Assembly (NCBI GenBank): GCA_945931735.1
Contig: CAMEPN010000028.1
Location: forward strand, 1-10,183
DNA: 10,183 nucleotides
Direction: 5' to 3'
Origin: an uncultured Clostridia bacterium
Lineage (GTDB): Bacteria > Bacillota > Clostridia > Oscillospirales > Ruminococcaceae
Positions 256-9,256 of the stretch are shown here, one piece after another. Each line of letters starts with the position of its first letter. The first letter of the stretch is position 1. Under the pieces are notes generated by a model. The model was given only the letters and a program-made list of their open reading frames with translations, was not told where the DNA came from and ran no database searches. The position numbers and the translations under genes were made by a program.

Positions 256-284
256 TTGCAAAGTATGATAATCCGTGCTATAAT
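256..284 (+). promoter_or_regulatory. Promoter of the DRT2 ncRNA and reverse transcriptase
   Basis: TTGCAA (256-261), a 17-nt spacer and TATAAT (279-284), with TGC directly before the -10 forming an extended -10 element. The region upstream (about 225-250) is rich in A and T runs, as in an UP element. The predicted start is near 291, exactly where the first hairpin of the ncRNA begins. No other promoter is apparent before the RT start at 584. Confidence 0.8.
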
Positions 285-293
285 ATTTATGCA

Positions 294-425
294 TCATATA
301 CTGATATGATGGAGAGGAATTGTTGTCAAGTAGTTTCCGATGATTTCGAATAGAAGTTTCGGAACAACTTGTTCAGGTACGAACAGCAAGACTATTGCTA
401 TTGCAATTATGTTTACGCTGGTCAT
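294..425 (-). CDS. neo: neo open reading frame, endless in concatemeric cDNA (48-residue repeat)
   Basis: The chromosomal copy reads 43 codons from ATG (425-423) to TGA (296-294), antisense to the ncRNA. It is preceded by AAGGAAGG with 7-nt spacing. In the predicted cDNA concatemer (unit 319-462) the frame does not stop. Residues 1-35 run from MTSVNIIAIAIVLLFV through PEQVVPKLLFEIIG to NYLTT. The junction codon is ATA (320, 319, 462), and LHCGIITKEGGY then leads back to the ATG, giving 48 sense codons. The other five frames each meet a stop inside the unit. The peptide has a strongly hydrophobic N-terminal segment (about residues 4-16) followed by an amphipathic stretch. In Klebsiella DRT2 the corresponding Neo product arrests growth after phage infection, and I infer the same role here. 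A conventional small type I toxin is the alternative, but it would lack a -35. Confidence 0.6.
   Translation of the reverse strand: MTSVNIIAIAIVLLFVPEQVVPKLLFEIIGNYLTTIPLHHISI
324..329 (-). promoter_or_regulatory. Orphan -35 box (TTGACA) of the junction-assembled neo promoter
   Basis: On the cDNA-sense strand this is a perfect TTGACA with no matching -10 on its 3' side in the chromosome. After the AACAAT jump, it is followed by ACAAT plus ACTCCATTGTGG, 17 nt in total, and then TATAAT at 450-445. The promoter therefore exists only in concatemeric double-stranded cDNA. Confidence 0.65.
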
Positions 426-450
426 GTAACCACCTTCCTTTGTTATTATA
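426..450 (-). promoter_or_regulatory. Extended -10 and ribosome binding site of neo
   Basis: On the minus strand, TGG-TATAAT has its -10 at 450-445, followed by AAGGAAGGTGG at 440-430 and ATG at 425-423. In the chromosome the -35 position holds TAAAAA or a similar hexamer, so the element should be silent. With the TTGACA supplied by the repeat junction it becomes consensus. The predicted start near 438 gives a leader of about 13 nt containing GGAAGG. Confidence 0.65.
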
Positions 451-583
451 CCACAATGGAGTATTGTTTTTAGGGTAGTCGATATTGAAGGGACTTTCTT
501 TCTATGTCGTGTTAATGTATATGCCTGACGGTGCTGGATGCTACCCCCTTGCCGTTGGGCATTTTCACTTTTTAGGAGAAAAA

Positions 584-1912
584 ATGGATATATTAAAATG
601 GAGAAAAAAGAACAGCGCCATCAAGAGCTATGCTCATTTTGACAAGAGAGTATCTGTTGGAAACAACTTTATATGGAACTACATCACAAATCCTAAGTCG
701 GTTGCTCATCACGGGTTTTATCCTTTTATTCGAAGCACAAGGAAATTTAAAAAGTATAACAAAACCGATGGTGTAAAGAATAAAGAGCGACCAATTTGCT
801 ACTCCGCCCATATTGATAGATGCATCTATCAATATTACTCTTTCCTGCTGAATGAAAGGTATAATCAGAGAGCTTTGGATGACGGGATAAACAATGTCGC
901 TATTGCATACAGAAACAATTTAGAAAAGCAAAATAATATTACATTTGCTAAAACAGCATTTGATTTTATTAAAGCAAACCAAGATTGCTTTGTTATGATA
1001 GGTGATTTTACAAGTTTTTTTGACAAAGTTGACCACAATTACCTTAAATCTCAACTGTGCAGTCTTTTGAGTGTGACAAAGCTGCCCGACGATTACTACG
1101 CAGTATTTAAGAACATAACAAGATACTCTTTTTGGGATATAAATGACTTGCTTACAATAAATGGGTTACCCAATACTCAAAAGGGTATTCGTGAGCTTAA
1201 CGAAAAGGAAACAGTACTATCTTCTCAGGAATTCAAACAGCACAAAAAGCAGTATTTACAGCGCAATGGAAATTGCGGGATTCCGCAAGGCTCTGCAATC
1301 AGCGCCGTTTTGGCGAATATCTATATGCTTAGCGCAGATAAGATAATCAATAACTATGTTCGTGAGTTGGGCGGACTATATATGAGGTATAGCGATGATT
1401 TTATTATTGCTTTACCAAATATCTCTGTATCAAAGTTTAATGAAGTATATTCATGGATAATGCAGTATTATAAAGATATGCCGGGCGTGGAGTTATCTCC
1501 AGAAAAGACAAAGCTATACCATTTCTGTGATAAAGTGGTATTTTCTTATGAGTCCGCCGAGGAGGAGCTTACTCAAAAGTCACGAATAAACTTTTTGGGG
1601 TTCTCGTTTGATGGAACGGAAGTTACCATAAGGGATAAAACCGTTTCCAAGTACTATTACAGGCTTTACAGAAAAGCCAAACAAATTGTTGAAAGCGATT
1701 TTATTTCTCCAAACGGAAATCCTATTTCTTGCAGGAATTTGTACAGGCTCTATTCATGCAAGGGCGCAAAAGCCAATTTGGGAATGAAAGGTGGCAACTT
1801 TATTACCTATGTAAATCGCGCATACAATACCTTCGATAGAGCTGAATCGGTAAAGCGTCCTGTGCGCAAGCACATGAGAAAAATCAGAAAAGCGCTCAAC
1901 AAACCACAATAA
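584..1912 (+). CDS. drt2: DRT2-type (UG2-like) antiviral reverse transcriptase
   Basis: This 442-residue reverse transcriptase is proposed to copy the upstream ncRNA into repetitive cDNA as an anti-phage defence. RT landmarks are ERPICYSAHIDR at about 68-79, motif A IGDFTSFFD with catalytic D141, a PQGSAIS template/primer-grip motif at 234-240, and the YSDD active site at 269-272. The sequence continues with the FLGFSFDG region and a basic C-terminus. The retron NAxxH and VTG signatures and the DGR-type SQ motif are absent, and no maturase or endonuclease domain follows. I chose ATG 584 because AGGAGA lies at 574-579. The in-frame GTG/TTG-type extension back to 485 runs through the strong 521-562 RNA hairpin, so it is untranslated. 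The single-gene layout with a roughly 270-nt structured leader fits DRT2. Membership in UG2 rather than another UG group is inferred from layout and the neo signals, not from an alignment. Confidence 0.75.
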   Translation: MDILKWRKKNSAIKSYAHFDKRVSVGNNFIWNYITNPKSVAHHGFYPFIRSTRKFKKYNKTDGVKNKERPICYSAHIDRCIYQYYSFLLNERYNQRALDDGINNVAIAYRNNLEKQNNITFAKTAFDFIKANQDCFVMIGDFTSFFDKVDHNYLKSQLCSLLSVTKLPDDYYAVFKNITRYSFWDINDLLTINGLPNTQKGIRELNEKETVLSSQEFKQHKKQYLQRNGNCGIPQGSAISAVLANIYMLSADKIINNYVRELGGLYMRYSDDFIIALPNISVSKFNEVYSWIMQYYKDMPGVELSPEKTKLYHFCDKVVFSYESAEEELTQKSRINFLGFSFDGTEVTIRDKTVSKYYYRLYRKAKQIVESDFISPNGNPISCRNLYRLYSCKGAKANLGMKGGNFITYVNRAYNTFDRAESVKRPVRKHMRKIRKALNKPQ

Positions 1913-2377: not shown

Positions 2378-3718
2378 TCAAAGCTCTTTCTTAAACAGCA
2401 GCACTCGACAGTTAAACACCAGTTCCTCCTCGTAAAAATCAAGGCTGCCGTTATATTTTTCGGCAATGTGCCATATAGACCTTATTCCAAAGCCGTGTAA
2501 AGCTTTATTACTCTTGCTGGTTTTGAGTTTGGGGTTATTTTTCAGAACGGAACTTGCAATAGAGTTTGAAACGCAAATGTTCAATTTGTCCTCATCAACC
2601 AATATTGAAACCTCTATGAATTTTGCGCCTTGAATTTTTTCAGCTGCTTCTATGGCGTTATCAAGCATATTTCCGAGCAGAATGCAAAGGTCGTGCTCGC
2701 ATATACCGGATATGTCGCTGCTTGAACTGCAAAGAACCGTTATCCCCTTAGATTTGGCTATGCTGAGCTTGGAATTAAGGATAGCGTTTATAAAATTATT
2801 CTTTACATCAACGAATATGTCAACTGCTTCAAGTAGATTTGAGCATTCGGCTGCGTATTCTGCCGCGCCCGATATGTCTCCTTCGTTGGCGAGCCGTGAT
2901 ATTACTGCAAGGTGCTGTTTCATATCGTGCCGAATGCTTCGCATTTCCTCGTACTGCTTTCTGATTGATTCGGCATATTGGATATTATGCTCCTGTTGCT
3001 GTTCAAGCAGTTTGATTTTTTCTGCGGCGCTGTTGCTTTTGCTGAGTGAAAGCGTCATATACAGGCATATCACATTAAGAAGGACAATTCCCGATTCCGA
3101 AGCAAAAACCAATACAGTATTGACTGCATTCAGATTAATGGCGGAAAAAATCGTATGTATCAAAGCCAGTACCATGAACGAAACTAAAAATACTGAGATA
3201 ACAAGCGCCCATTCGGACTTTTTCATTCTAAGCAGCGAACCATCAACAAACTTCAGAATAAGGCTGAACAGATACACATTTATGACCTGTATCGTAACCA
3301 GCACCAAAAAGCGAACAAGTCCGGGCTTGGTATAAACATAGGATACATCAATATCAATCAAGGCACAAGCAATGCTTGTCACTAGAGCTTTTGTGCCTAA
3401 TAACACTACATCGGCGACCACAGAGGCGAACAGTTTTTTCAGGACAGCGCCCTTAAAACAAATCAACGAAAATATAAACCAGTACACGCCAATCAATGAA
3501 TATATAAACCAGTACATGACATAAGCTATCCCAATCCAGTAAGTAGAACGGGAGAATAAGCTCAATGCTATTGCAAAGACCGTACCGACCACGCTTCCGC
3601 AGATGTATGCTATCCTTCCTTTCGGACAGGATATATCATATTTCAGCACTCCGCAGATGAACCGAAAAACCAAAAGCTGCTCGAATAAGGTGACTAACGC
3701 TTCAAATATATTCCACAT
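2378..3718 (-). CDS. AgrC-like sensor histidine kinase (GHKL ATPase, multi-TM sensor)
   Basis: This is a 446-residue membrane sensor kinase, expected to phosphorylate the LytTR regulator encoded just upstream. Residues 1 to about 225 are a series of hydrophobic segments, roughly six or seven TM helices with no large extracellular domain. That is typical of AgrC/ComD-class peptide sensors. A coiled linker (about 230-260) leads to the phosphoacceptor H264 in SIRHDMKQHL. The N-box is GNMLDNAIEAAE (349-360) and the G-box is HGFGIRSI (408-415). ATG 3718 is chosen over an in-frame TTG at 3730 because GGAGGA lies just before it. The gene starts 12 nt after the regulator stop, so the two are one operon. 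The TM region carries a 30-bp tandem duplication (3461-3520). No AgrD-like or AgrB-like gene is present in the window, so the signal is unknown. Confidence 0.9.
   Translation of the reverse strand: MWNIFEALVTLFEQLLVFRFICGVLKYDISCPKGRIAYICGSVVGTVFAIALSLFSRSTYWIGIAYVMYWFIYSLIGVYWFIFSLICFKGAVLKKLFASVVADVVLLGTKALVTSIACALIDIDVSYVYTKPGLVRFLVLVTIQVINVYLFSLILKFVDGSLLRMKKSEWALVISVFLVSFMVLALIHTIFSAINLNAVNTVLVFASESGIVLLNVICLYMTLSLSKSNSAAEKIKLLEQQQEHNIQYAESIRKQYEEMRSIRHDMKQHLAVISRLANEGDISGAAEYAAECSNLLEAVDIFVDVKNNFINAILNSKLSIAKSKGITVLCSSSSDISGICEHDLCILLGNMLDNAIEAAEKIQGAKFIEVSILVDEDKLNICVSNSIASSVLKNNPKLKTSKSNKALHGFGIRSIWHIAEKYNGSLDFYEEELVFNCRVLLFKKEL
3461..3520 (-). repeat. 30-bp in-frame tandem duplication inside the kinase membrane domain
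   Basis: Positions 3461-3490 and 3491-3520 match at 26 of 30 bases. In the protein this gives two consecutive copies, YWFIYSLIGV and YWFIFSLICF, at about residues 69-88. The reading frame is kept and both copies are hydrophobic, so they add or lengthen a TM segment of the sensor. Confidence 0.85.
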
Positions 3719-3730
3719 TTTTTCCTCCAA

Positions 3731-4453
3731 TCAGCTGTTGTTTCTGAGATAAAGGTTATATTTTTCCGTCAGCAGAGGCTTATATGCTCTGCTTATATCC
3801 AGTTCAATGCCGCTGTCCAGCAGGACATAAAAACGGGTGTTATCTATCCTGCAAAGGTGAGATAAATTGATGATGTATCTGTTATGAATACGGGCAAAAT
3901 ACATTTCCGGCAGCTGCTCCAAAAGGCTTTCAAGCTTGGAGCGCAAATGTATGACCTCGTTTTTGCAGTTTATATCGACATAATTTGATTTGCTGGATAC
4001 ATAGAGAATATCCTCGGCATGAACATATTTCTTTTCACCGTGCGGCAGCGAAAAACAGATGGGCATATTTGCCGAAATATGTGCAGCAAGCTTTTTGATA
4101 ACACTGTTCAGTTTTATCTCCATTATTTCGGCGGTGTCCTTTGTAATAAAGTTAAACGGTCGGAAATCAAGACTATCGTAAACAAGAGCGTTCTCAGTAG
4201 TGATGAATATTATGTATGTCTTTTCGGAAAGCCGGCGTATCTGCCGCGCGACCTCAAAGCCGTCTGTTTCCGGCATTTTTATATCCAGAAATACAATGTC
4301 AAACATATTGATTCTATGTGCTTTAAGAAAGCTGTTCCCCGAGGTGAAGGTCTGAAATTCACACTTTACCGCGTTTCTTGCCATTGCACCTGATATCCGC
4401 TCCAACAGATGTTTTAACATAGTTTCATTATCATCGCATATTGCCGCTCTCAT
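3731..4453 (-). CDS. LytTR-family response regulator (AgrA/ComE type)
   Basis: This is a 240-residue cytoplasmic two-component regulator. The receiver domain (1 to about 120) has D7-D8, phosphoacceptor D57 in FLDIKMPETDGFE, T85 in FITT and K105. The LytTR DNA-binding domain (about 137-240) includes the conserved stretches YVSSKSNYVDI, RSKLESLLEQLP and FARIHNRYIINL. Such domains bind pairs of short direct repeats. ATG 4453 is chosen because AAGGAGGG lies just upstream and a consensus promoter (4484-4512) overlaps the longer ORF that extends to 4549. The kinase follows 12 nt after its stop. The divergent ABC operon and repeats at 4527-4557 are the probable target. Confidence 0.92.
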   Translation of the reverse strand: MRAAICDDNETMLKHLLERISGAMARNAVKCEFQTFTSGNSFLKAHRINMFDIVFLDIKMPETDGFEVARQIRRLSEKTYIIFITTENALVYDSLDFRPFNFITKDTAEIMEIKLNSVIKKLAAHISANMPICFSLPHGEKKYVHAEDILYVSSKSNYVDINCKNEVIHLRSKLESLLEQLPEMYFARIHNRYIINLSHLCRIDNTRFYVLLDSGIELDISRAYKPLLTEKYNLYLRNNS

Positions 4454-4483
4454 AACGCCCTCCTTGATATTGCCCTTGAAATA

Positions 4484-4512
4484 ATTATACGCTGAAAAAG
4501 AAAGGCTGTCAA
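4484..4512 (-). promoter_or_regulatory. Promoter of the regulator-kinase operon
   Basis: On the minus strand, TTGACA (4512-4507), 17 nt and TATAAT (4489-4484) form a perfect consensus. The predicted start near 4477 gives a leader of about 24 nt with the ribosome binding site. This predicts substantial basal expression of the two-component pair. Confidence 0.85.
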
Positions 4513-4526
4513 TCAGGTAATAATTC

Positions 4527-4557
4527 CAAACTTCACTTTTTATTGTCAAACTTCACT
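4527..4557. promoter_or_regulatory. Paired 11-bp direct repeats, likely LytTR operator
   Basis: CAAACTTCACT occurs identically at 4527-4537 and 4547-4557, a 20-bp period or about two helical turns. The second copy ends 6 bp before the -35 of the transporter promoter, and the first lies 14 bp from the -35 of the divergent regulator promoter. LytTR regulators bind such paired repeats, usually about 21 bp apart. Activation of the transporter is the likely outcome, and some effect on the pair's own promoter is possible. Confidence 0.75.
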
Positions 4558-4629: not shown

Positions 4630-5220
4630 ATGTACATGATTGATACTCATAGCGGAATACTCCCGGCGGCGCTTATTCTCATTGCGATAATCGCTATTGC
4701 TGTGCCGCTTATAATGCGAAAGCTGACGCTAAGACAGCTGATATGCGCTGTTGTCCTTGCGGCAGCGATGATATTCTGGCTTATTCAGTCGCTGGGTACA
4801 TATGTGATATTTGGCGGGGCGTTAAGGGGACAGAGCATTGATGTTATTCCGTTTTCAAGCGTTTTGCTGACAGTCGATGATTTTGGCGGTTTGTTGACAC
4901 AGCAGGAGCTTTGGGAAAACTGTATTGCGCCGCAGCTGTTTGGGCTGTCGGTTTCGCTGGGGTTCGGGATAGTATGGGGGATAACAGCCGCCGAAGCGTT
5001 CAACCTGCGTACTGCGAAAAAATTCGCTGTTGTTTCTCTTGCCGTGGTGCTTCCTTTGGAACTGGCAATAAACCTTGCCGCTCTGTCCGGCATAGTGTAC
5101 AGCTACTGGTATGATACGGCAAGATACCTGCTTACCGCAGCAGGAATAACAGGCGGGTGGTTCATAAGAAAAGGTGTAATGTGTCTGAAAAAGGAGCGCA
5201 GAGATGATAACGATAAATGA
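4630..5220 (+). CDS. VanZ-like integral membrane protein
   Basis: This 196-residue protein has about five hydrophobic segments (about 10-28, 36-56, 105-125, 132-155 and 160-180). VanZ-like features are SIDVIPF at 69-75, followed by a later LPLELAINL segment and a TAGITGGWFI segment, in the same order as the RxNLIPF, IEllQ and NtlGgllGY motifs of the family. VanZ relatives affect glycopeptide or lipoglycopeptide susceptibility, though many are of unknown role. It is first in an operon, overlapping the ATPase gene by 17 nt. GGAGGAG with 7-nt spacing supports ATG 4630. An auxiliary role in resistance to cell-envelope compounds with the ABC transporter is inferred. Confidence 0.65.
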   Translation: MYMIDTHSGILPAALILIAIIAIAVPLIMRKLTLRQLICAVVLAAAMIFWLIQSLGTYVIFGGALRGQSIDVIPFSSVLLTVDDFGGLLTQQELWENCIAPQLFGLSVSLGFGIVWGITAAEAFNLRTAKKFAVVSLAVVLPLELAINLAALSGIVYSYWYDTARYLLTAAGITGGWFIRKGVMCLKKERRDDNDK

Positions 5221-5863
5221 GCTAAGAAAATGCTATACTCTCGGCGAAAACAACACCGTCACGGCTCTGGACGGAGTTTCGTTTGAGGTGAATGACGGCG
5301 AGTTGGTCTTTGTAATGGGAAAGAGCGGTTCGGGGAAATCAACGCTGCTGCACATTTTAGGCGGCATTGACAGACCGACCTCGGGCAGTATCAAGTACGG
5401 CGATATTGATATATCATCACTTTCGGAAAGGAAGCTGGCGAGGTTCCGGCGCGATAATATCGGTTTTGTTTTTCAGGATTATAACCTTGTTCCTGAGCTT
5501 ACCGCCGCAGAAAACATCAAGTACCCTGTGCTGCTTGCCGGAAAAAAGCCTGACCGCAGATTATGGGAGCATCTGATTTCCACACTTGAACTCGGTGACA
5601 GGCTGGAACATCTGCCGTCGCAGCTTTCCGGCGGTCAGCAGCAGCGCGTTGCAATCGCGAGAGCGCTTATTTCAGACCCGCAGGTGATTCTGTGCGATGA
5701 ACCGACCGGAAATCTTGATTCCGAAGCGGCTGAGAATGTTCATAATATGCTGTTCAGACTCAACAGCGATTTGAAAAAGACAGTAGTAATTGTTACCCAT
5801 GACCCTGATTTTGCACGAAAAGGAAAGCGGACAATAACGCTCATGGACGGAAGGATCACATAA
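5204..5863 (+). CDS. ABC transporter ATPase (MacB/LolD/BceA type)
   Basis: This is a 219-residue nucleotide-binding subunit. Walker A is GKSGSGKST (39-47) and the Q-loop is Q91 in FVFQDYNLVP. The signature is LSGGQQQR (141-148), Walker B is VILCDEPTG with D165-E166, the D-loop is NLD (170-172) and the switch histidine is H199 in VTHD. Length and motifs fit the family that partners FtsX-type permeases in peptide or lipoprotein handling. GGAG at 5193-5196 precedes the ATG. The gene overlaps the VanZ-like gene by 17 nt and abuts the permease with no gap, so translation is coupled. Confidence 0.96.
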   Translation: MITINELRKCYTLGENNTVTALDGVSFEVNDGELVFVMGKSGSGKSTLLHILGGIDRPTSGSIKYGDIDISSLSERKLARFRRDNIGFVFQDYNLVPELTAAENIKYPVLLAGKKPDRRLWEHLISTLELGDRLEHLPSQLSGGQQQRVAIARALISDPQVILCDEPTGNLDSEAAENVHNMLFRLNSDLKKTVVIVTHDPDFARKGKRTITLMDGRIT

Positions 5864-8239
5864 ATGAAACTGATAACACATTATGTGCTGAGAAATATGT
5901 CGCTTCACAGGGCAAGGAACATAGGCGTATTTCTGGCATATCTGGTCATAACAATATTCTTCGCGGCGGAACTGTCTATGCTTGATGATTTCAGAATATC
6001 GAACGAAACCGCGCTTGACGGTATTTTCGGAACGCATGACGGGATATTCTGTACCGAAACTCCGAATGTCGAACATTATGGTGATTTTGAAGAAACCGGC
6101 GTTATAGCAGTAGCATTCAACGGAACAAAGGACAACGAAAGCACCGACAGGTTAATTATTGCCGGCAATGCGGACGATACCGCCGTGAGCCATTGCAGCA
6201 TTACTGCTGTTGAAGGAAGGCTTCCCCAAACTGAAAACGAGATTGCTCTTGAGCGCTCGCTGCATGACATTCTCTATCCCAATTCCGCTGTTGGCGATAA
6301 AATCACCATTAACATCAATTCACCGGAAAAATCTCAGGCTGTGTTTTCGCTTTGCGGCATTGTCAACGACTTTTCGGGGTATCAGTGGGATTCCGCCGGG
6401 AACATGCCGGAGATGCCCAATGCATTTGTAGGCGGTGAATGTGTTGACGCAATGTATTACTTTGTGAGCGTGAAGGGCAATGTAACCGGTACTGACGGAG
6501 CGGTATTCCTGCCGAACCAACGAAACAGCCTTGATGTGATGAATTCCATGTTCGGGATAAGCTCCGACAATAGCGTGGCGATATTGAATGTTGTGCTTAT
6601 CGTGTTTGTCTTAATATCATTTTTGGCTGTACTTTTTGTTTTCAGCAGAATGACCGGAAAAGAGCTTGGCGTTCTGAGGTCAGCTGGCTTTGACGAAAAA
6701 AGCGTTTCCGCTATTTCGGTGATAAGGCTCTGCCTGCTTATTGTTCCGGCGCTTATTTTTGGAGCAGTCGGCGGCTGTGCGATAACCATGTTCCGTGCAG
6801 GAATGGTTCATTGTATCTCCATAATCAAGCTGGCGGCTTTTGTTGTTTTTTCAGTAGTAATATTATGTGCAGTGGAGATATACTGGGTCAAAAAAGGGTT
6901 TAGAAGACCTGTCAACTGTGAGTTGCGGAAATGTCCTCCAAAAACAGGCATGAAGGTCACAAGCAGCGACCCGATTTGGCTGTACTCCCTTCGCTGCTAC
7001 ATTATGAACGGTCAGGAGATTTCTGCCTGTGCGGTCACGACATTTCTTGCGGTAATGCTGTTATTTATTGCTGTGTCTGTGAATGCCCAAATGCGTTCCA
7101 CAATACTTCAGATGGAGCGACCGTATGATATGTCGGTGTTGTTCACCGACCAGACAGTAACCACGCTGAATGTGTCAAGATACAATTCAGGCCTTTCAGA
7201 GCAGGAATTTCAGGCTTTAAAGAACAGAGGTGCTGATGTAATCGGAATAAAGCGGCAGTATGTCTATGAGCTTGGTGTCAGCGATGGTTCGGGTGATATT
7301 TATTCCGACAGCCACAACGATGATATAAAGCAGGACATGGAGCGGCTCGGATTTTCCGACCAAGATATATTTGCACTTAGAATTAACGGTCTTGATGACG
7401 ATTCGATGAATTACATTAGTGGTCATATTATTGACGGCGAAATAGATAGAATAGGACTGCAAACAGGAACTCAGGCAATATGGGTCAGCTCGGGCGGCGC
7501 TTATGAGCATTCCGTTGGAGATGTGATACAGCTGGGCTTTGTGGTCAATAGTGACCCTGACGCACCGTCATACGACAAGATGAAATATTACGAGATAAAT
7601 GTGACTATCTGCGCGGTCGCTGAATTTTCTTTTGATTCGCCCGACAGGAAAACACGGGCTTTATCCGACTGCATAGAAGGCGGTTTGATATGGTCAGATA
7701 AGGCGTTTGAGAACATTGGAATACAGAAAGGGTACGACGCCGTGTATTTATGGCTTCCGGAGGACAGCACGGCAGTATATCGGCTTATAAATGATTTCAA
7801 ATCTCATTACGGCAGCCTGTTCCATACGACTGATTATATACAAGAGCAGCAGGTGCGCACTGAAATCACTTCACAAATTGAAATGGTGTCTGTCGTATTT
7901 ATTTCCGGTATTGCGGCGGTTTCGCTGATAAGCTTTGCAATAGTCACTGCTTCCAGAGCTGCACAGCGCAGAAAAGTATATGGATATTTACGCGCGGCGG
8001 GTCTAACCGGTGGGCAGCTGTTCCGTCTGCTTTCGGCAGAGAACGGAATATCCATAGCAGTATCGTTTCTGAGCGGCGCAGTGCTTGGGTGGCTGCTGGT
8101 ATGGGTTTTGCAGATACCTATGTCTGGCGGGTGGCTGATTGCTGTTATGGCGGCAGGATATGCCGTGGTCACAGCTTGTGTTGGTGCAGTAATTGCGTAT
8201 CGGATATGTCGGGTCAGCATTGCTGAGTGTATTAGGTAG
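5864..8239 (+). CDS. FtsX/MacB-like ABC permease, BceB-size
   Basis: This 791-residue permease has two repeated halves. A single N-terminal TM (about 17-38) is followed by an extracellular MacB-like core domain (about 40-235), then three TM segments (about 240-340). A further TM follows at about 385-405, then a second large extracellular domain (about 410-675) and three C-terminal TM segments (about 680-785). The conserved FtsX pattern appears as GKELGVLRSAGF in the first half and RRKVYGYLRAAGLTGGQL in the second. Such permeases act as mechanotransmitters or as peptide exporters/target-protection pumps with their ATPase. The ATG follows the ATPase TAA directly, and the operon ends at the hairpin at 8292. 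The neighbouring two-component pair suggests inducible resistance to an antimicrobial peptide or a peptide signal. The substrate is unknown. Confidence 0.9.
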   Translation: MKLITHYVLRNMSLHRARNIGVFLAYLVITIFFAAELSMLDDFRISNETALDGIFGTHDGIFCTETPNVEHYGDFEETGVIAVAFNGTKDNESTDRLIIAGNADDTAVSHCSITAVEGRLPQTENEIALERSLHDILYPNSAVGDKITININSPEKSQAVFSLCGIVNDFSGYQWDSAGNMPEMPNAFVGGECVDAMYYFVSVKGNVTGTDGAVFLPNQRNSLDVMNSMFGISSDNSVAILNVVLIVFVLISFLAVLFVFSRMTGKELGVLRSAGFDEKSVSAISVIRLCLLIVPALIFGAVGGCAITMFRAGMVHCISIIKLAAFVVFSVVILCAVEIYWVKKGFRRPVNCELRKCPPKTGMKVTSSDPIWLYSLRCYIMNGQEISACAVTTFLAVMLLFIAVSVNAQMRSTILQMERPYDMSVLFTDQTVTTLNVSRYNSGLSEQEFQALKNRGADVIGIKRQYVYELGVSDGSGDIYSDSHNDDIKQDMERLGFSDQDIFALRINGLDDDSMNYISGHIIDGEIDRIGLQTGTQAIWVSSGGAYEHSVGDVIQLGFVVNSDPDAPSYDKMKYYEINVTICAVAEFSFDSPDRKTRALSDCIEGGLIWSDKAFENIGIQKGYDAVYLWLPEDSTAVYRLINDFKSHYGSLFHTTDYIQEQQVRTEITSQIEMVSVVFISGIAAVSLISFAIVTASRAAQRRKVYGYLRAAGLTGGQLFRLLSAENGISIAVSFLSGAVLGWLLVWVLQIPMSGGWLIAVMAAGYAVVTACVGAVIAYRICRVSIAECIR

Positions 8240-8291: not shown

Positions 8292-8322
8292 AAAGCTCCT
8301 GCAAAAACAGGAGCTTTATTTT
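8292..8322. terminator. Bidirectional terminator between convergent operons
   Basis: AAAGCTCCTG (8292-8301) pairs perfectly with CAGGAGCTTT (8308-8317) around CAAAAA. It is followed on the plus strand by ATTTT (8318-8322), and on the minus strand by TTTTAGTATTT. It serves both the permease operon and the convergent DUF1848 gene, whose stop (8321-8323) touches its tail. Confidence 0.9.
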
Positions 8323-9256
8323 ACCATAAATCAAGCTGATTATCAATCAGTGATTTCATCGGACGTTCTGTCACCTTGTCCTCTGGCTGAAGCAAACTGC
8401 ATAGCAGAGGAGAATTTGGGTCGTAGCAGCTAAAGTTGTTTAAGACAACACCTGAGCTGTAATTGGCATAGCAATATTTACAGCCATGTGTGCAGGTGTT
8501 GTAAGAGCCGATATCAATGCTGTCAACACACCCGCATTCATCGCGCTGTGTTTTATCTTTCTGAACTTTCAGCTTTGCTCCGACAAGACTTTCGATAAGC
8601 TCTTTGTCTATGCAACTGTTGTGTTCAATTCCGTAATCGCTTAGGTCTATTTGTTCGGCACAGGTATAAATCTTAAAGCTATACCTTTTTGCTATTTCGG
8701 AAAAACGCTGTGCAATGTCAGCCATTTGAATTCTTTCAAGCTCTTTCAGACCATTATCACGGAAATTCTTTGCGTTCTTTTTGTATTCATCTACAAAACT
8801 GATAACACATCTGCCGAATTTCCCGCTCAGAGCCAGAGCAAGCTTTTCAAAGTAGGTGGCGTGATATTCAATAGAATATTTTTCGGTTACAATAATTGGG
8901 TCGTAACGCCAAATGATTCTTTCAGGTCCAACCATATCCGAAAGCTCAATAAAAGTATTAAGTATATCCTTGCCCTTTGATGGAACATTCGGCTCAACAT
9001 CTGTCGAATACGAATTAAGTGTAAACTGAAAATAATAGTTGTAACCTTTCAGCTCATCAAGTCGGCTCATCATTGGCTTGGGGTTCTTTGTCCAAAACAC
9101 GATACAATCCACAACATCGGGAGAAAGGCTTATGCGGCTCACCTGATGAATGTTCATCGGATTTCTGACAAGCACATAGCCGTCTTTTATTCTGTTGAAG
9201 AACCACTCGCTGTAAAATGCGGGAATGTCAGTTCTGCGGCTTGCGCTTATTATCAC
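8321..9256 (-). CDS. DUF1848 family protein with Cys-cluster (radical-SAM-like)
   Basis: This 311-residue protein begins ISASRRTDIPAFYSEWF, a hallmark N-terminus of DUF1848. Further family-like stretches are DCIVFWTKNPKPM, YYFQFTLN, ERIIWRYDPII and FKIYTCAEQ. The C-terminal part carries C241, C243 and a CX3CX2C cluster (C255, C259, C262 in CTHGCKYCYAN), the spacing of a radical-SAM type 4Fe-4S site but placed near the C-terminus instead of the N-terminus. No substrate has been assigned that I know of. The start is GTG at 9256, with AAGGAG 9 nt upstream; a nearby ATG at 9263 is out of frame. It lies 6 nt after the methyltransferase-like gene and its RBS is inside that gene's end, so the two are translated from one message. 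Confidence 0.8.
   Translation of the reverse strand: MIISASRRTDIPAFYSEWFFNRIKDGYVLVRNPMNIHQVSRISLSPDVVDCIVFWTKNPKPMMSRLDELKGYNYYFQFTLNSYSTDVEPNVPSKGKDILNTFIELSDMVGPERIIWRYDPIIVTEKYSIEYHATYFEKLALALSGKFGRCVISFVDEYKKNAKNFRDNGLKELERIQMADIAQRFSEIAKRYSFKIYTCAEQIDLSDYGIEHNSCIDKELIESLVGAKLKVQKDKTQRDECGCVDSIDIGSYNTCTHGCKYCYANYSSGVVLNNFSCYDPNSPLLCSLLQPEDKVTERPMKSLIDNQLDLW

Follow-up and report, generated by a model that had tools for sequence, protein, structure and literature searches.

The 10,183-nt stretch of DNA analyzed here (contig CAMEPN010000028.1 of an uncultured Clostridia bacterium, family Ruminococcaceae; hereafter the window) carries a reverse transcriptase (RT) gene preceded by a predicted structured noncoding RNA (ncRNA). 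The locus is very likely, at a probability of about 0.88, a Firmicute DRT2 phage-defense system, in which repeated copying of an RNA template would join a -35 and a -10 promoter box and open a stop-free gene, neo. This reading is built on the sequence, on a structure model of the RT and on analogy with DRT2 of Klebsiella pneumoniae.

In the proposed mechanism, the RT would copy the central 144 nt of the upstream RNA round after round, probably jumping between copies at a repeated AUUGUU. Every junction in the complementary DNA (cDNA) would join the -35 box to the -10 box and so give a gene without stops that encodes Neo, a hydrophobic repeat protein. As in Klebsiella DRT2, phage infection would be expected to trigger the copying, the cDNA would become double-stranded and be transcribed by host RNA polymerase, and Neo would arrest growth.

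Split promoter and template unit

The elements of the predicted split promoter and neo gene all lie on the minus strand, upstream of the RT gene:

325 to 468, minus strand: template unit of 144 nt in cDNA sense, predicted head-to-tail repeat (sequence, shuffles)
463 to 468, minus strand: AACAAT, landing copy of the repeat at the template 3' end (sequence)
319 to 324, minus strand: AACAAT, departure copy of the repeat at the template 5' end (majority fraction 0.96 in 12 alignment rows)
324 to 329, minus strand: TTGACA, -35 half (most conserved hexamer of the template)
445 to 453, minus strand: TGGTATAAT, extended -10 half (majority fraction 0.96 for 445-450)
430 to 441, minus strand: AAAGGAAGGTGG, predicted neo ribosome-binding site (sequence)
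423 to 425, minus strand: ATG, predicted neo start, its frame running through 425-325, then 468-426, and onward without a stop (sequence)

The two AACAAT copies (468-463 and 324-319) are spaced 144 nt apart, and TGG stands directly before TATAAT (450-445). On the chromosome, the boxes (TTGACA at 329-324) occur in reversed order; head-to-tail joining of 325 to 468 puts them right, and joining at the hexamer yields TTGACA-ACAAT-ACTCCATTGTGG-TATAAT with a spacer of 17 nt. The initial annotation, made from the sequence alone, had described the two repeat copies, the perfect boxes and the 17-nt spacer formed on joining, and it was exact to the base. It was silent on the coding content of the joined unit, which amounts to 48 codons. 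A single frame of the cDNA strand is free of stops; both others on that strand and all three of the ncRNA sense contain them. The stop-free frame carries both AAAGGAAGGTGG and the ATG (425-423).

When the 613-nt upstream stretch was shuffled 20,000 times with dinucleotides preserved, a perfect split promoter with 17-nt spacing and a repeat of at least 3 nt arose in 108, a repeat of at least 6 nt accompanied it in 3, and a stop-free unit divisible by three in 4. One further perfect split promoter, unrelated to the first, is present in the window on the plus strand inside the RT gene (183-nt unit, 3-nt repeat), so that a single locus alone is no proof. A single split promoter arising by chance is rare, not impossible, and conservation in relatives settles the question.

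Recurrence among DRT2 loci and drift of the template interior

The upstream stretches of 35 distinct DRT2 loci were compared; five loci that duplicate the one in the window (L001-L003, L047, and L051) and two with almost no upstream DNA (L181 and L041) were omitted. A perfect TTGACA-17-TATAAT formed by joining at a repeat of at least 3 nt, with a stop-free unit divisible by three, was found in 18 of the 35, compared to 0.008 expected in all of them together (500 shuffles per locus). The count rose to 19/38 with the addition of L194-L196 and to 20/40 with two Escherichia coli loci (L209 with the perfect form, L208 without). When the frame was not required, 38 loci gave 21 perfect split promoters (two at L004), 20 of which were divisible by three and stop-free; the sole exception, L184, has both boxes and a unit of 145 nt. 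The initial annotation had named homologues without the split promoter or the repeat pair as the finding that would speak against it, and 20 of the 40 distinct loci carry both.

Among 146 control loci without a DRT2 RT, a perfect split promoter occurred in 25 of 5,984 overlapping tiles and a stop-free unit in 3. Viral contigs were searched with a 15-letter pattern taken from the conserved ATTGTTGTCAA; no DRT2 RT at an E value of 1e-20 was present among the matches listed, and these loci served as controls only. The control tiles and the unrelated 3-nt-repeat match in the window show that chance can produce the arrangement, and they leave the 18 of 35 DRT2 loci unaccounted for; chance is the least probable of the explanations considered and very unlikely given the homologues. 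The view of the initial annotation that coincidence was improbable was borne out by the shuffles with a repeat of at least 6 nt (3 of 20,000) and by the recurrence in homologues, with the unrelated window match as a reservation.

Conservation was measured on 12 rows of alignment A2, which comprises 15 related RNAs, including four rows of close kin (L054-L056 and L195), of which the near copies L055, L056, and L195 were dropped. The mean majority fraction reached 0.99 in the -35 complement and 0.96 both in the -10 complement and in the 5' repeat copy; it was lower in the ribosome-site complement (0.74), the 3' repeat copy (0.58) and the template interior (0.51 over 95 columns). Of 145 template hexamers, the -35 ranked first and the -10 next; the only hexamers level with the -10 overlap the -35 or the 5' repeat copy. 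The run shared by the two template ends in the 11 clade members whose boxes show no more than one mismatch measures 3 to 6 nt and includes AAT (cDNA sense) in 10 of them, as AAT, CAAT, ACAAT, AATA or AACAAT; L033 has ATA. The initial annotation had predicted that the boxes and the hexamer pair would be kept while the rest drifts. Boxes and drift behaved as predicted (0.99 and 0.96 versus 0.51), and the hexamer pair was not kept as a pair. The sequence features of DRT2 found here include the template-end repeat, the junction promoter with its 17-nt spacer and the endless frame.

In a side observation, L191 (Clostridioides phage HGP05) represents a phage-borne DRT2 with a perfect split promoter and a stop-free unit of 132 nt in the other of the two frames described below.

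Upstream RNA and reverse transcriptase

The predicted RNA and its elements are positioned as follows:

256 to 284, plus strand: predicted ncRNA promoter, TTGCAA (256-261), 17-nt spacer and TATAAT (279-284) (read from the sequence)
290 to 570, plus strand: predicted DRT2 ncRNA of about 280 nt, 3' end approximate (Rfam RT-6, fold, alignment A2)
292 to 311, plus strand: 5' handle hairpin of the ncRNA (helix 1, 6 of 8 pairs changed on both sides)
473 to 479, plus strand: predicted pseudoknot 5' strand GGGTAGT, pairing with GCTACCC at 540-546 (helix 3, 5 of 7 pairs two-sided, 95% of cells paired)
521 to 562, plus strand: scaffold stem-loop, its loop bearing the second pseudoknot strand (helix 4, 8 of 10 pairs two-sided)

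The predicted promoter would place the RNA start near 290, where the match to the Rfam family RT-6 begins (290-363, plus strand, 53.6 bits); RT-6 is the only one of the two families discussed below, RT-6 and RT-12, that matched the window. The fold of 290-575 had a z score of -2.99. Covariation was counted on A2 in four helices, namely, the handle, the hairpin at the -10 complement, the scaffold stem and the pseudoknot (473-479 with 540-546), after three pseudoknot pairs had been shifted by one column by eye, the window having one C fewer there. In total, 93.3% of 435 cells were paired and 22 of 30 pairs showed two-sided changes; none of 500 shuffles scored as high, and slid controls reached 32.9 to 48.2% paired. 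The upstream ncRNA with a 5' handle and a pseudoknotted 3' scaffold, a further feature of DRT2 membership, is therefore present, and the layout of handle, template and pseudoknotted scaffold has been published for Klebsiella DRT2 (PMC12039810, PMC11100668).

Alternatively, the boxes might be kept because the RNA needs them for its fold or for binding the RT, and their match to a promoter once joined would be incidental. The -10 complement does sit in the loop of a small, partly covarying hairpin (helix 2, 3 of 5 pairs two-sided, 80.6% of cells paired), and the 5' handle is closely followed by the -35 complement. RNA structure leaves unexplained why the hexamers are perfect sigma consensus, the 17-nt spacing, the divisibility by three and the stop-free frame (20 of 21), as well as the same boxes in Klebsiella-like RNAs of another Rfam family, and this explanation is unlikely. 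In Klebsiella, compensated changes that kept the fold and removed the box led to loss of transcription and defense (PMC12039810).

Of 20 loci, mostly from Firmicutes, 7 have an RT-6 match at or over the cut-off, as does L194 among five more sources. For RT-12, the cut-off was reached in 7 of 16 further loci and in the two from E. coli. Among 20 genomes that carry a DRT2 RT, 13 gave an RT-6 match at an E value of 0.001 or better and 9 gave one over the cut-off, with one match per genome; all 13 matches begin no more than about 330 nt upstream of the RT gene and on its strand (G1294 placed via locus L058). Under stricter filters, no RT-6 match over the cut-off other than that of the window was found in 255 genomes of the class, and three weak matches there (27 to 30 bits) are probably due to chance. 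Judged by these matches, RT-6 is the predicted 5' part of Firmicute DRT2 RNAs, including 290-363 of the window, and RT-12 lies within the predicted proteobacterial-type DRT2 RNAs, just before the RT (L035-L040, L183, L208, and L209). The two look like seemingly unexplained Rfam families that can now be given a system and with it a testable function. No paper linking RT-6 or RT-12 to DRT2 was seen among the literature matches listed, as judged by title and beginning of the abstract.

584 to 1912, plus strand: DRT2 reverse transcriptase, 442 amino acids, YSDD active site (PADLOC, AlphaFold2 model)

The RT matched the PADLOC Drt2 profile at an E value of 3.3e-142, and its sequence matched three distinct PDB sequences with E values no higher than 1e-10, of which two bear the name Drt2. 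An AlphaFold2 model built on a 20-row alignment (mean predicted local distance difference test score 81.9) had as its top fold match 9c0i, a DRT2 RT with its ncRNA, with template modeling (TM) scores of 0.76/0.79. TM scores were 0.43 to 0.46 with DRT9 chains, second by E value, 0.57 with a group II intron RT and about 0.4 with retron chains, which ranked 13th onward. Profile and modeled fold point to the window RT belonging to DRT2 (UG2) and not being retron-like.

RTs of this type are sparse. A search of the class gave any match in 28 of 391 genomes and a match over most of the query in four (G000, G261, G331, and G360). At an E value of 1e-40 with alignment A1, the RT was found in overlapping sets at 4/398 for the phylum, 2/150 for relatives, and 6/197, 5/250, 1/10, 1/2, 6/246, and 1/70 for the others. 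An identical RT occurs in two further assemblies, one of them a genome of the same genus, with near-identical flanks.

Neo frames, known systems and competing explanations

The string TTGACA-17-TATAAT leaves two frames readable without a stop. Nine loci read TTG ACA ... ATA AT (frame 0: the window, L004, L005, L006, L052, L053, L057, L058, and L194) and ten read TT GAC A ... TAT AAT (frame 1: L036, L038, L039, L040, L183, L185, L059, L060, L191, and L192), with L209 of E. coli as the eleventh frame-1 locus; L038 is Klebsiella-like (PDB 9c0i, E value 1e-169). The nonperfect clade members L033 and L190 also fall into frame 0, as do, judged by translation, L054-L056 under a looser rule. On an RT tree of 40 rows (20 unlabeled), the frame label needs a single change (support 93/91; 96% of 200 bootstrap trees). 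Identical promoter letters over differing amino acids speak for selection on DNA, and in the window clade the promoter appears, from these sequences, to have been held by such selection while Neo changed. It is probable that the Firmicute branch switched the Neo frame with the promoter unchanged, which would give two unrelated Neo families, DNA-level selection across phyla and a Neo that serves as a replaceable toxic payload, RT-6 and RT-12 being the RNAs of these systems. The switch would separate promoter selection from protein selection, which is impossible with a single system.

A TRTG run ahead of the -10, typical of Gram-positive promoters, was present in 11 of 14 clade units versus 0 of 10 others. 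The Neo unit of the window is hydrophobic, with a grand average of hydropathy (GRAVY) of 1.14 compared to a mean of 0.00 for stop-free shuffles of its interior; 10.95% of 2,000 such shuffles were stop-free, and none of these reached 1.14. Across 24 units, the fraction of stop-free shuffles reaching the observed GRAVY ranged from 0 to 0.28, the excess not being clear at every locus.

The window locus and Klebsiella DRT2 share the upstream structured ncRNA with handle, template and pseudoknotted scaffold (PMC12039810, PMC11100668), a short repeat at the template ends, a junction TTGACA-17-TATAAT, a stop-free unit divisible by three and a hydrophobic Neo. They differ in the RT (about 30% identity), the unit length (144 nt versus 120 nt, with 111 to 129 nt in close Klebsiella homologues; PMC12039810) and the jump site, AUUGUU in the window, where the junction falls directly behind the -35, versus ACA in Klebsiella. 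The promoter frame of the window also differs from that of the Klebsiella-like loci compared, which came from E. coli and viral contigs, and the window locus stands outside the ACA-type subgroup both in jump motif and in Rfam family (RT-6, not RT-12). Loci designated here as C. difficile-phage type (L059, L060, L191, and L192) likewise have a perfect split promoter with a stop-free unit of 132 to 135 nt; unlike the window, they have the repeat TAC, ATAC or AATACG, the Klebsiella-type frame and no RT-6 match over the cut-off. DRT9 and DRT10 also combine an RT with an ncRNA and produce repetitive cDNA, which in contrast to that predicted for the window consists of homopolymers or tandem repeats; for DRT9, the authors argue against a coding role (PMC12483538, PMC12632851).

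In IS911-type circle-junction promoters, two separated halves are also assembled, by circularization of transposon DNA and not by reverse transcription. By its sequence, the window locus is best placed as a DRT2 member, in a Firmicute variant that is distinct in jump motif, unit length and Neo frame. The likeness to the Klebsiella mechanism pointed out in the initial annotation is supported by the RT profile and modeled fold, the RNA layout and the recurrence above chance.

Tang et al. (PMC11100668) report that homologues have conserved ACA motifs as well as junction promoters and that Neo was harder to annotate in divergent clades. Wilkinson et al. (PMC12039810) raised the speculative possibility that the promoters made by diverse DRT2 systems differ from one another and may even be specific to a phage. 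The divergent branch described here keeps the housekeeping consensus exactly and would bring into the Firmicutes the creation of genes from an RNA template under a host-type promoter. A simple rule for hidden neo genes emerges, namely, boxes out of order, a repeat of at least 3 nt and a unit divisible by three. Firmicutes, Clostridia, Rfam and RT-6 are unmentioned in the main texts of PMC12039810 and PMC11100668, whose supplementary trees may include Firmicute members. No Firmicute junction promoter was described among the literature matches listed, by title and start of abstract, and priority is uncertain. As far as the published account is readable, the different promoter frame of the clade, with one switch on the RT tree, and the matching of RT-6 and RT-12 to DRT2 RNAs go beyond it.

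Several observations weigh against a junction-made neo gene in the window. The perfect form is absent in 20 of the 40 loci (L033, L034, L035, L037, L048, L049, L050, L054, L055, L056, L182, L184, L186, L187, L188, L189, L190, L195, L196, and L208). L033 and L190 have one box mismatch each. In L054-L056, the boxes are TTGACT and either TATGAT or TAAGAT, and the repeat CAAC lies 8 nt further upstream in the RNA; a looser rule recovered near forms in several loci and false units as well, and near forms were not counted. L195, which belongs to the RT clade of the window, lacks a repeat of at least 3 nt at the place where its near kin have one. The Klebsiella ACA jump motif was absent at both template ends of the window. 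Codon-position counts in 16 Neo-unit pairs gave no uniform coding signal, the second position changing least in some pairs and most in others. L048, a member of the RT clade (n = 16), keeps the handle, the -35, the scaffold and a 7-nt repeat and has no stop-free unit: its 166-nt unit has stops in every frame, and its best -10 shows two mismatches at a spacer of 18. Finally, the extended -10 TGGTATAAT exists on the chromosome even without the junction and could fire weakly there, with a single-unit product of 43 amino acids that ends at a stop.

The last point bears on the claim in the initial annotation of a promoter that exists only after template jumping. The word "only" slightly overstates the case, given that an extended -10 already stands on the chromosome. 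That -10 might even be an ordinary chromosomal antisense promoter, for a single-unit peptide or for an antisense RNA that tunes the ncRNA. Such a promoter would leave the conserved downstream TTGACA, the repeat pair and the divisibility by three unexplained, and this role is decidedly unlikely. L048 is either decayed or makes its gene in a different way, and the window locus could by the same token be a decayed DRT2 whose parts persist without function. In sequence, its RT frame and YSDD site, the helices of its RNA, both boxes, the repeat and the neo frame are all intact, and the identical RT recurs in two further assemblies, making decay highly unlikely. The junction-made neo gene is retained as the preferred reading.

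Two side observations concern the same elements. The junction-spanning protein motif of L054-L056 is still like that of the clade. In the window, the interval 423-453 (minus strand) holds an extended -10, a ribosome site and a stop-ended 43-amino-acid open reading frame on the chromosome, and leaky single-unit Neo expression is conceivable.

The remaining annotated genes of the window are the following:

2378 to 4549, minus strand, and 5204 to 8239, plus strand: GHKL-type kinase and LytTR response regulator, ABC ATPase and FtsX-type permease, ordinary neighbors (Pfam)
8321 to 9256, minus strand: DUF1848 protein (Pfam, E value 1.7e-112)
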